Source of the DNA: Sphingomonas panacis
GTDB taxonomy: Bacteria > Pseudomonadota > Alphaproteobacteria > Sphingomonadales > Sphingomonadaceae
Direction: 5' to 3'
DNA: 64,000 bases
NCBI RefSeq assembly: GCF_001717955.1
Contig: NZ_CP014168.1
Coordinates: 4,619,501-4,683,500 of the forward strand
The translations under genes were made by a program, and so were the position numbers. The notes below the pieces were generated by a model. It searched no databases. It saw only the letters and a program-made list of their open reading frames with translations, and was not told the origin of the DNA. Shown here in pieces: positions 5,290 to 52,479 of this stretch; position 1 is the first letter of the stretch, and every line of letters starts with the position of its first letter.

Positions 5290-6354
5290 ATGGCGACTGC
5301 CGCGATCTTCACGCCCGATGAGCCGGTATTGCCGCGCAACTGCACCTTCGATCCGACCGACTGGGCGATCCTCGCACAGCATTGGTATCCGGTCGCGCTC
5401 GTCCGCGAGATCGGCGACGCGCCGCTCGGCACCAAATTGCTCGACCAGCCGCTCGTCATCTACCGCGCCGAGGGCGAGATCGTCGTCGCGCCCGATATCT
5501 GCCCGCATCGCGGCGTGCCGCTCAGCATGGGCACGCAGACCGGTAGCGGCGTGGTCTGCGCTTATCACGGCCTGAAGTTCGGCGCGGGCGGGCGCTGCGT
5601 GCATGTGCCCGCGCACCCCGCCAAGGGCATCCCCGACCGGATGCACCTCAAGACCTACCCGCATGTCGAACGCTACGGGCTGATCTGGACCTGCCTCACC
5701 GCCGCACCGGGCGCGCAACCCGCGCCGGGCGAGATCCTCGACGTGCCGCACTGGGACGAGCCGGGCTATCAGCAGATCGTCTGCCCGTGGATCGACATTC
5801 ACGGCTTCGCCGGGCGCCAGATGGAGGGCTTCCTAGACGTCGCGCATTTCGCTTTCGTCCACACCGATACGTTCGGCGACGCCAACAACGCCGAAGTGCC
5901 CGCCTACAAGCCGCGCACCACCGATTACGGCTTCGAGGCCGAATATTGGAGCACGGTCGGCAATTATCCGATCGGCGTGAGCGGGCGCGGCGTGCCCGAT
6001 TTCCGCTGGCTGCGCCATTTCCGCTGCCACGTGCCGTTCTCGGCCTCGCTCGAAATCCACTTCCCAGGCGCCGACCGGCTCGTCGTGGTCAACTGCGCCT
6101 CGCCGGTCTCGGCCAAGGTGACGCGGCTGTTCGCGCCGATCGCGCGCAATTTCGACACCGACCTGCCCGTGCAGGACGTGTACGACTTCAACCTGCGCGT
6201 GTTCCACGAGGACAAGGCGATCGTCGAGGCGCAAATGCCCGAGGAACTCCCGCTCGATCCGATGATGGAAGCGCACATTCCCGCCGACATGAGCTCGCTC
6301 GCCTACCGCCGCCTGCTCCGCGACATGGGCCTGAGCCGCTTCTTCACGTCGTAA
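5290..6354 (+). CDS. Rieske 2Fe-2S aromatic ring-hydroxylating oxygenase, alpha subunit (VanA-like)
   Basis: The 354-residue protein has an N-terminal Rieske domain with C71-P-H73 and C90-A-Y-H93 as cluster ligands. A catalytic domain follows, with the mononuclear-iron motif FLDVAHFAFVH (D/E-x2-H-x4-H). This layout matches three-component oxygenases of the vanillate O-demethylase / phenoxybenzoate dioxygenase type, which demethylate or hydroxylate small aromatics using a separate reductase. No reductase gene is next to it, so electrons must come from elsewhere. ATG 5290 is preferred to ATG 5278 because GAGG lies 6 nt upstream of it. Substrate not assignable. Confidence 0.85.
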   Translation: MATAAIFTPDEPVLPRNCTFDPTDWAILAQHWYPVALVREIGDAPLGTKLLDQPLVIYRAEGEIVVAPDICPHRGVPLSMGTQTGSGVVCAYHGLKFGAGGRCVHVPAHPAKGIPDRMHLKTYPHVERYGLIWTCLTAAPGAQPAPGEILDVPHWDEPGYQQIVCPWIDIHGFAGRQMEGFLDVAHFAFVHTDTFGDANNAEVPAYKPRTTDYGFEAEYWSTVGNYPIGVSGRGVPDFRWLRHFRCHVPFSASLEIHFPGADRLVVVNCASPVSAKVTRLFAPIARNFDTDLPVQDVYDFNLRVFHEDKAIVEAQMPEELPLDPMMEAHIPADMSSLAYRRLLRDMGLSRFFTS

Positions 6355-49864: not shown

Positions 49865-51811
49865 ATGGCTACACTGCTGGAAACCCCCGACCTCGTCGCG
49901 ATCGCCGACGCCGCCACCACCCGCGCCGCCGCCGCGCTGGCCGATGCGCAGCGGCCAGACGGGCATTGGGTGTTCGAGCTTGAGGCGGATGCCACCATCC
50001 CGGCCGAATATGTGCTGCTGCGCCATTATCTCGGCGAGCCGCGTGCCGTTGAGCTGGAGGCGAAGATCGGGCGCTACCTGCGCCGCATCCAGGGCGCGCA
50101 TCACGGCTGGCCGCTGTTCCACGGTGGCGCGTTCGACGTGAGCGCAAGCGTGAAGGCCTATTATGCGCTCAAGATGATCGGTGACGATATCGACTCGCCG
50201 CACATGGCGGCGGCGCGGCGCGCGATCCTCGCGGCGGGCGGCGCCGAGGCGGCGAACGTCTTCACGCGAATCCAGCTTGCCTTGTTTGGTGCCGGGCCGT
50301 GGAAAGCGGTGCCGACCTTGCCGGTCGAGCTGATCCTGCTGCCGCGCTGGTTCCCGGTGCATCTCTCGAAGATGTCGTACTGGGCGCGCACGGTGATCGT
50401 GCCGTTGCTGGTGCTGGCGGCGAAGCAGCCGGTGGCGCGCAACCCGCTCGGCATCACGGTGGATGAGCTTTACACCGGCCGGCCCAAGCCGCCCGAGAGC
50501 AAGGCCGCCGACACCAAGCGCGGCTGGACGATGTTCTTCAACGGGCTCGACGTGGTGCTGAAGGGCGTCGAGGGGCTGTGGCCGAAGCGGCTGCGCGCGC
50601 GGGCGATTCAGGCGTGCATCGACTTCACCGTCGAGCGGCTGAACGGCGAGGATGGCCTCGGCGCGATCTATCCCGCGATGGCGAACAGCGTGATGATGTT
50701 CGATTGCCTCGGTTATGCCGAGGACCATCCGCACCGGGCGATTGCGCGGCAATCGGTCGAGAACCTGCTCGTCGTGAAAGACGACGAGGCCTATTGCCAG
50801 CCCTGCGTCTCGCCGGTGTGGGACACCGCGCTCGCCGCGCACGCGATGCTGGAAGCGGGCGGCGCGGAGAATGAGGCGAGGGCCGATGCCGCGCTCGAAT
50901 GGCTGCGGCCGTTGCAGGTGCTCGACGTGAAGGGCGACTGGGCCGAGCAGCGCCCCGATGTGCGCCCGGGCGGCTGGGCGTTCCAGTACAACAACGCGCA
51001 TTACCCCGATCTCGACGATACCGCGGTGGTGGTGATGGCGATGGACCGCGCCGCGCCGCGTTCGGGCGCCGACTACCGCATGGCGGTGGAGCGCGCGGTC
51101 GAGTGGACGGTCGGGTTGCAGAGCAAGGGCGGCGGCTGGGGTGCGTTCGACGCCGACAACCATCACCATTATCTCAACAACATCCCCTTTGCCGATCATG
51201 GTGCGTTGCTCGATCCGGCGACCAGCGACGTGTCCGCGCGAGTCGTGTCGATGCTCGGGCAATTGGGAGAACCGCTCGACACGCCCCGGATGCGCGAGGC
51301 GATCGGCTTTCTCGAACGCGAACAGATGACGGACGGGAGCTGGTTCGGGCGCTGGGGGGTGAATTACATCTACGGCACCTGGTCGGTGCTGTGTGCTTTG
51401 AACGCCGCTGGCGTGGATTCGCAGTCGCCGATGGTGCGCAAGGCGGTGGCGTGGCTGGTCGCGATCCAGAACGCCGATGGCGGCTGGGGCGAGGATTGCG
51501 ACAGCTACGACCTCGCCTACACGGGCCATACCCCTGCCCCTTCGACCGCGTCGCAAACCGGCTGGGCGTTGCTCGCGCTGATGGCGGCGGGCGAGGTCGA
51601 TCATCCGGCGGTGGAGCGCGGTGTGCGGTATCTGGCCGAGACGCAAGCCGAGGACGGGCTGTGGGGGCAGGAAATGTACACCGGCGGCGGTTTCCCGCGC
51701 GTGTTCTACCTGCGCTATCACGGCTACCCGAAGTATTTCCCGCTGTGGGCGCTGGCGCGCTATCGCAATCTGAAACGCTCGAACGACCGGCGGGTTACGG
51801 TGGGGATGTGA
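49865..51811 (+). CDS. shc: Squalene-hopene cyclase
   Basis: The 648-residue class II triterpene cyclase makes hopene and hopanol from squalene. The catalytic acid motif DxDD is D382-L-D-D385 in HYPDLDDTAV, and several QW motifs stabilise the double alpha-barrel (QSKGGGWGAFD, QNADGGWGEDCDSY, QAEDGLWGQE). The GYPKYFPLWALARY tail is usual. It is a monotopic inner-membrane enzyme. It follows hpnE by 8 nt, and its stop overlaps the GTG of hpnG. Confidence 0.97.
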   Translation: MATLLETPDLVAIADAATTRAAAALADAQRPDGHWVFELEADATIPAEYVLLRHYLGEPRAVELEAKIGRYLRRIQGAHHGWPLFHGGAFDVSASVKAYYALKMIGDDIDSPHMAAARRAILAAGGAEAANVFTRIQLALFGAGPWKAVPTLPVELILLPRWFPVHLSKMSYWARTVIVPLLVLAAKQPVARNPLGITVDELYTGRPKPPESKAADTKRGWTMFFNGLDVVLKGVEGLWPKRLRARAIQACIDFTVERLNGEDGLGAIYPAMANSVMMFDCLGYAEDHPHRAIARQSVENLLVVKDDEAYCQPCVSPVWDTALAAHAMLEAGGAENEARADAALEWLRPLQVLDVKGDWAEQRPDVRPGGWAFQYNNAHYPDLDDTAVVVMAMDRAAPRSGADYRMAVERAVEWTVGLQSKGGGWGAFDADNHHHYLNNIPFADHGALLDPATSDVSARVVSMLGQLGEPLDTPRMREAIGFLEREQMTDGSWFGRWGVNYIYGTWSVLCALNAAGVDSQSPMVRKAVAWLVAIQNADGGWGEDCDSYDLAYTGHTPAPSTASQTGWALLALMAAGEVDHPAVERGVRYLAETQAEDGLWGQEMYTGGGFPRVFYLRYHGYPKYFPLWALARYRNLKRSNDRRVTVGM

Positions 51812-52479
51812 CCTTGCTCGTCGCCTGCGGGCTGACGCGCGAGGCGCGGATTTTCGCGGGTGCTGGTGTCGTGGCGGTCGCCGGGGGCGGTGATGTGGCG
51901 CGGCTTGAGGCCGGGCTTGAGGCGGCGATCGCGGCGGGCGGCGTGACCGCGATCCTGTCGGGCGGCATCGCCGGTGCGCTCGATCCGGCGCTCAGGCCGG
52001 GGGATGTGGTGATCGGCACGTTGTTCTCCCGCGAAAGCGGGAGTTCAGAGCAACAAGGCCAAGCGTTCGCGGCCCTGGACTCCCGCTTTCGCGGGAGAAC
52101 AGCGGAGATATTCCCGAACGCGCATTTCGGCTGCATCGTCGGCAGCGACACGATCGTCGCCACGCTCGCCCAGAAGCGCGCGCTTTACGCAGCGACCGGA
52201 GCGCTCGCCGTGGATATGGAATCGCACATCGCCGCGCGCGTCGCCGCACGCCACGCCCTGCCCTTCGCGATCCTGCGCACGATTTCGGATGGGGCGGACC
52301 ACGTGCTGCCGCCCGCCGCGCTGGTCGGCATGAAGCCCGATGGTGGGATGGCGCTCGGCGCGGTGCTCGCCTCGCTGGCGCGGCATCCGGCGCAATTGCC
52401 GGCGCTGATCCGCACCGGGTGCGATGCCGGGCGGGCGTTCAGCGCGCTGGAGCGGGCCTGGACCTCGGTCGAGATCTGA
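51808..52479 (+). CDS. hpnG: Adenosylhopane nucleosidase HpnG, carrying an in-frame palindromic insertion
   Basis: The 223-residue protein belongs to the nucleoside phosphorylase family; the SGGIAGAL, AVDMESHIAARVAARH and ILRTISDGADH segments carry the catalytic and purine-binding residues. HpnG releases adenine from adenosylhopane, giving ribosylhopane after HpnH. GTG 51808 overlaps the shc stop. Residues about 72-98 are encoded by a 78-bp palindromic element, so the loop between VVIGT and AEIF is longer than expected, yet the frame continues and the catalytic motifs are intact. It is convergent with hpnH. Confidence 0.9.
   Translation: MTLLVACGLTREARIFAGAGVVAVAGGGDVARLEAGLEAAIAAGGVTAILSGGIAGALDPALRPGDVVIGTLFSRESGSSEQQGQAFAALDSRFRGRTAEIFPNAHFGCIVGSDTIVATLAQKRALYAATGALAVDMESHIAARVAARHALPFAILRTISDGADHVLPPAALVGMKPDGGMALGAVLASLARHPAQLPALIRTGCDAGRAFSALERAWTSVEI
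52023..52100. repeat. Palindromic element inside hpnG (perfect 22-bp inverted repeats)
   Basis: The arms 52023-52044 and 52079-52100 are perfect reverse complements over 22 nt (left arm GTTCTCCCGCGAAAGCGGGA, then GT). The whole element is 78 bp, exactly 26 codons, and keeps the hpnG frame open. Each arm is itself a small hairpin around CTCCCGC-GAAA-GCGGGAG. Confidence 0.92.

Follow-up and report, generated by a model that had tools for sequence, protein, structure and literature searches.

A single loop of HpnG seems to have been rebuilt repeatedly from scattered palindromic repeat DNA in Sphingomonas

Introduction

The hpnG gene of Sphingomonas panacis raises the question of how a palindromic repeat comes to lie in frame within the gene of an otherwise intact enzyme, and of whether the repeat or the site that it occupies is the more unusual of the two. 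Among the known systems, REPINs are dispersed elements made of two inverted REPs with a variable centre, and RAYT transposases mobilise them. To our knowledge, it is not yet settled for the Rickettsia palindromic elements (RPEs) if such repeats ever give rise to useful protein. RPEs enter genes at unusually high frequency, as stated in the part of PMC10969869 used here. The sections of Di Nocera et al. (2013, PMC3733652) on which we draw describe the CGTC REPs as alphaproteobacterial repeats of two inverted units, with a 4-nt loop, a CCA-type tail and no dedicated transposase, which are mostly intergenic; RPE-4 is a CGTC-4 REP and RPE-6 a CGTC-1 REP. Intragenic REPs, including some in DnaE2, and the occupation of roughly the same recB position by different REPs in two Xanthomonas species have already been published in those sections.

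The element within hpnG

The locus lies in the window, that is, the whole 64,000-nt stretch of S. panacis DNA that was analysed, to which the following positions refer.

51808..52479, + strand: hpnG, hopanoid-associated phosphorylase, 223 aa, GTG start (TIGR03468, PF01048)
52023..52100, + strand: palindromic REP-doublet-like element, 78 bp, in frame in hpnG (residues 72-98)
52023..52044, + strand: left arm, 22 nt, itself a mini-palindrome; core TCCCGCGAAAGCGGGA at 52027-52042
52045..52078, strand not applicable: variable centre, 34 nt; 9/34 sites vary among three orthologues, vs 0/44 in the arms
52079..52100, - strand: right arm, 22 nt, exact reverse complement of the left; core at 52081-52096
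52048..52086, + strand: codons for the predicted helix 81-93 (EQQGQAFAALDSR), wholly repeat-encoded; pLDDT 65-73 by block of ten

The start of hpnG overlaps the stop of the upstream gene, and its product scores 194.8 bits against TIGR03468, above the curated cut-off of 187.1, which makes it a member of the HpnG family; its nearest folds are MTA nucleosidases. The original prediction held that the catalytic motifs are intact on either side of the insert, and E12, E138 and D161, which we take to be the catalytic residues, are indeed invariant over 51 aligned HpnGs. A pseudogene was rejected on the grounds of the open frames across the loop and of the third-position bias of flank changes: in pairs of orthologues with the host-type insert (class D below), the changes at codon positions 1/2/3 number 12/15/53, 15/11/44 and 15/18/53, of 196 each.

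The predicted palindrome, with its exact inverted arms of 22 nt, its length of 78 bp and the open hpnG frame, was borne out in all its coordinates, and a wider inverted repeat extends over 52019-52104 with 33-nt arms that are 91% complementary. Since each arm is a mini-palindrome (a small palindrome, TCCCGCnnnnGCGGGA, lies within each), the element amounts to a pair of inverted REP-like units around a variable centre. Folded as RNA, the 94-nt stretch reaches -68.8 kcal/mol, compared with -33.3 (sd 3.3) among dinucleotide shuffles (z -10.8), and none of 200 shuffles folds as well, a result that led to the rejection of a chance palindrome. An Rfam RNA family was rejected too, the five matches all being far under gathering scores; four of them are to microRNA models, and they are taken as hairpin artefacts. 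The plasmid collection searched for copies of the element gave no match.

Copies elsewhere in the host genome

With the 94-bp stretch as query, the host genome returned at least 83 match rows, often representing both orientations of one place, and the core TCCCGCNNNNGCGGGA was found at 52 places, vs 1 for the reversed control. Besides the hpnG copy, at least 43 places were counted in 39 fetched stretches, 39 of these places being at least 50 nt long; such counts are lower bounds, since scoring covered 40 of 62 first-look candidates. The ends GTTCTCC...GGAGAAC of the hpnG element recur in many aligned copies, around a variable centre, and a longer subtype has about 10 bp more. The search for a second genomic copy thus yielded many, which supports the proposal of a sphingomonad counterpart of the Rickettsia elements, in the sense of a multi-copy palindromic repeat lying in frame within a gene.

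The proposal went further and described a repeat that spreads into genes. An uninterrupted frame across the element says little on its own, because in this GC-rich genome 38 of the 43 further copies likewise have a frame that stays open for at least 30 codons on both sides. Copies were therefore called in frame when the best-scoring codon frame was identical on both flanks and stop-free, at 120, 210 or 300 nt, a test that genes ending close to a copy can escape. As controls, the hpnG copies of the host, G041, G187 and G059 were flagged in four of four cases, the B copy marginally (at 210 nt alone, its scores being close to 0). Among the 43 host places outside hpnG, 40 did not pass, and two (L053, ~2495; L059, ~2531) fitted the frame rule at one flank length each but scored negative on one or both sides, and are left undecided. 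The only one to pass with positive scores, at 210 and 300 nt, lies inside dnaE2 (L055:1604-5101, contig position ~619600), in an open reading frame that matches the error-prone DNA polymerase model across the insert with 1283.5 bits (cut-off 939). Applied to the best-scoring listed copies of other families outside hpnG (see below), the test found none in frame in a gene: 0/14 for C in G041, 0/6 for A in G187 and 0/22 places for B in G059. The hpnG-type repeat in the host lies mostly outside coding frames, and spreading into genes as a habit is too general a description, because 1 of 43 other places tests as in-gene.

The same loop in related species

The hpnG gene is patchy in the genus. An HpnG match was obtained in 56 of 295 genomes, host included, of which 55 were taken, the fragment in G271 being excluded; a contig end interrupts G132 at the loop, so that 54 genomes provide the complete HpnG loop. 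In G132 (L174/L210) the contig starts inside hpnG near the loop, as an assembly broken by a palindrome might give.

An alignment of 36 HpnGs shows different inserts at one place. Over the 54 complete genes, in all of which the frame is open across the loop, the loop between VVIGTL and LPxAH measures 10-20 aa in 28 uninserted proteins and 29-75 aa in 25, and in G160 it measures 13 aa and contains one repeat arm. A palindromic insert is present in 24 of the 54, starting in the same stretch of ~20 nt. The call rests on a gapless inverted-repeat score of at least 14 in 23 genes, whose palindromes have their left ends between -7 and +13 nt from one anchor, and on homology to G213 in G164 (score 10); six uninserted genes tested score 5-7. 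The sole non-palindromic case among the 26 long or altered loops is G214, with a loop of 42 aa and a score of 7. Compared with 30 shuffles each, 21 of the 24 inserts fold with z of -5.4 or below and three fold weakly (G272, z -0.8; G213, -2.5; G164, -2.8). In the HpnG tree, the two nearest relatives of the host have the same insert with its palindrome and the next two are without it, so that the loop is not one that close relatives all share in the absence of the palindrome. The inserts fall into the following classes.

A: 6 genomes
B: 3 genomes
C: 2 genomes
C': 2 genomes
D (host type): 3 genomes
E and E': 4 genomes, plus the G160 remnant
F: 1 genome
G: 3 genomes

Among loci L088-L149 (61 of 62 covered, L112 being missing and L097 and L115 incomplete), the ones titled other than Sphingomonas show loop lengths of 10-32 aa, and none of these insert motifs was seen there. 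Within the genus, HpnG of G160 (L165:1705-1743) retains a lone arm of an E-type palindrome, the remainder of which has probably been lost, and by eye the loops of G067 and G238 contain short pieces resembling single arms of D and A. In the alignment, HpnG of G238 (L093) also has a separate insertion of ~25 residues elsewhere, from about residue 44.

Independence of the insertions

Representatives of A, B, C/C', D, E/E', F and G are mutually non-alignable (best cross-family E 0.017), and the within-class controls, C against C' and E against E', do align. Like D, the other families tested (C, A, B and E', four of the remaining six) are all multi-copy in their hpnG hosts. Counting both orientations, C gave at least 56-82 match rows in four hpnG-carrying genomes, A at least 70 and at least 28, B at least 79 and at least 80, and E' at least 8-32 in four genomes. 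Over all genomes searched, matches occurred in 14/15 for C, 6/9 for A, 8/9 for B and 9/10 for E', some with 1-4 rows. The D family was detected at E 1e-14 in at least 21 of 295 genomes, with three candidates at most scored per genome; among 10 genomes accessed through loci, 4 gave it at E 1e-5.

In a tree of HpnG built without the loop (192 columns; 23 of 51 inner branches well supported), the grouping of all inserted rows as one clade was rejected (p-AU 9.5e-5), that of C plus C' strongly so (p-AU 7e-67) and that of class A marginally (p-AU 0.046). The tree requires at least 5 changes for presence or absence of an insert and at least 10 for insert class. Because there are seven families and one of them (C) stands in two clades, at least eight insertions are likely from these sequence comparisons, provided that the tree holds and that hpnG itself has not been exchanged between species. 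Eight events in one 21-nt window would have a probability of ~3e-11 if all gene positions were equally likely; this figure ignores selection, precisely what our best explanation invokes. What is more unusual than the repeat is the hpnG site, where unrelated repeats occupy the same spot in related species.

We put at about 0.6 the probability that a single tolerant loop is the only place in hpnG where mobile REP-like doublets survive. The host element would be one copy of a non-autonomous, presumably mobile REP-doublet-like repeat that entered hpnG, with a stop-free frame, in an ancestor common to the host, S. populi and Sphingomonas sp. NFR15. The entry point would be the loop after strand VVIGTL, and in-frame insertions would be kept there because this loop is proposed to tolerate foreign peptide, others being purged. 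The same filter would have admitted at least six other unrelated palindromic families to the same site in other sphingomonads, and in the D and E lineages native loop and helix would have been lost, with repeat-encoded residues in their place. We infer that inserted HpnG is expressed and active. Tolerance alone, though, fails to account for the dominance of palindromes, or for arms that mostly change more slowly than the flanking codons.

The clustering of left ends within ~20 nt over seven families also speaks for a target at the DNA level, by which the elements or their copying process would prefer the site or its resident palindrome and new palindromes would replace old ones at a resident port. 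To this can be added the weak rejection of class A as one clade, the remnants at the site (the E-type arm in G160 and, by eye, the arm-like pieces in G067 and G238) and the C insert of G240, which sits within the clade of A inserts beside G187 and G114 (support 99/91). Since the A-insert clade holds this one C insert, exchange at one hpnG site is possible. Such a target is nevertheless rather unlikely, given that copies elsewhere lie at many unlike places and that the anchor sequences differ between classes.

Replacement of native sequence

The original prediction had the element adding a loop; the insert is at that place, but native residues are missing, so that it is largely a replacement. 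The span between the anchors is 87 nt in the host, of which only ~10 nt (52101-52110) lie outside the element, against 60 nt in G221 and 54 nt in G067, the nearest uninserted relatives; from this comparison, ~44-50 nt of native DNA seem to have gone from the host loop. To the right of the palindrome, A, B, C, C' (G213), F and G retain 22-47 native nt, and judging from the sequence the helix lies among them; D and E/E' retain only 9-11. AlphaFold2 predicts for host HpnG a helix at residues 81-93, which is repeat-encoded (EQQGQAFAALDSR) and of moderate confidence (pLDDT 65-73), and for the uninserted L072 a helix likewise at residues 81-93 (GRESTLVEALRAR; pLDDT 88-97 by block). The models support, without proving it, that the repeat-encoded helix stands in for the native one.

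In the single alignment shown (4kn5), the HpnG loop matches the stretch that follows strand GDIVIA of an MTA nucleosidase, a stretch that presumably borders both the pocket on its 5' side and the dimer interface. That position, together with the apparent replacement of the helix by repeat-encoded residues in the models, would suit adaptive inserts whose extra residues tune hopane substrate access, membrane contact or the dimer interface, palindromes being a handy source of them. We regard adaptation as improbable, since 28 of 54 HpnGs are without insert and the peptides of different classes have no evident common sequence.

Divergence of arms, centre and flanks

Among the three species with class D, variable sites number 0/44 in the arms, 9/34 in the centre and 116/588 in the flanks (p 1.6e-4), and at third positions 0/15 in the arms vs 73/196 in the flanks (p 0.0016). 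Over eight disjoint pairs from six families, differing sites amount to 21/450 in the arms and 235/1302 in the flanks; because the arms were delimited from the complementarity seen in one partner, the arm count is biased down, by an estimate of at most about half. The difference between arms and flanks reaches p below 0.05 in 10 of 14 pairs, the exceptions being G000/G110, G253/G042, G114/G187 and G105/G106. The slow arms possibly reflect conversion between copies, selection on the hairpin or, for E', repeated arrival, which is considered because the hpnG copy of G159 is closer to copies elsewhere (91-93% alike) than to the hpnG copy of G190 (79-83% in one comparison, 78% in another).

Retention of the palindrome for its RNA or DNA hairpin, which might for instance damp translation or transcription in the operon, with the peptide as a by-product, would agree with arms that change less than flanks both in class D and over the eight pairs, but we give it very little credence, since conversion between copies would likewise keep the arms constant, 4 of 14 pairs lack a significant difference and the arm definition itself lowers the arm count somewhat. 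A more far-reaching reading is tentative and, in our judgement, doubtful: the HpnG loop would be a standing port at which unrelated palindromes, exchanged over evolution, become working protein, the native helix being replaced and the arms actively kept uniform.

Relation to known repeats and mobilisation

Comparison with CGTC REPs was made on 69 arms. None carries a CGTC, TGTC or CCTC terminal tag, in place of which TGTT (29), CGTT (26) and others (14) were found. The A-T pairs at the first and second positions of an 8-9 bp stem are missing from most arms as well, the GCGGG stem being followed by ATCC in 8/69 and GTCC in 43/69. Shared features are the loop of 4-5 nt, with GAAA in 42/69 arms (a 4-nt loop was built into the search), the CCA tail, the tails being mostly TCC and then A in most sequences listed, and the arrangement as head-head dimers, since most listed host copies are two inverted units with the tags outside. 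The host element works like a CGTC-REP head-head dimer and an intragenic RPE, yet it is not filed as a CGTC REP because its tag is mostly YGTT, with 0/69 arms bearing CGTC, TGTC or CCTC.

The parallel with Rickettsia palindromic elements drawn in the original prediction holds in part: as in host hpnG, an RPE is a palindrome in frame that adds a peptide to an otherwise intact enzyme, but the frequent in-frame occupation of many genes is not seen in the host (1 of 43 other places, in dnaE2). With REPINs the element shares the two inverted REPs, the variable centre and the dispersal, and it differs in that the host has no RAYT gene flanked by the same REP.

The literature search yielded no recognised report of an hpnG hotspot, Additional file 3 of PMC3733652 (intragenic REPs) lying outside the comparison and possibly including hpnG; the sections of PMC3733652 used here describe no multi-family hotspot over many species. 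As far as the literature was compared, the novelty lies in how many unrelated families occur at one loop and in the disappearance of native sequence. One enzyme loop offers at least eight likely natural insertions, drawn from seven sequences, and uninserted relatives as controls, so that it becomes testable from hpnG whether insertion is merely tolerated and whether landing is by chance.

The site may also help to learn how REPs without a transposase move. The host's one Y1 transposase (L049:4952-5371) is IS200-like by eye and has its own inverted repeat at ~5370-5440; no repeat core was found near it, and mobilisation by a RAYT in the host was rejected. As regards the Y1 type, which was the one searched, the lack of a transposase tied to the host repeat agrees with the CGTC REPs as described in the consulted sections of Di Nocera et al. 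(2013, PMC3733652). Among 12 related genomes searched for Y1 transposases, eight gave none, and G106, G213 and G250 have two or three each, with open frames of 150-274 aa, which could be RAYTs.
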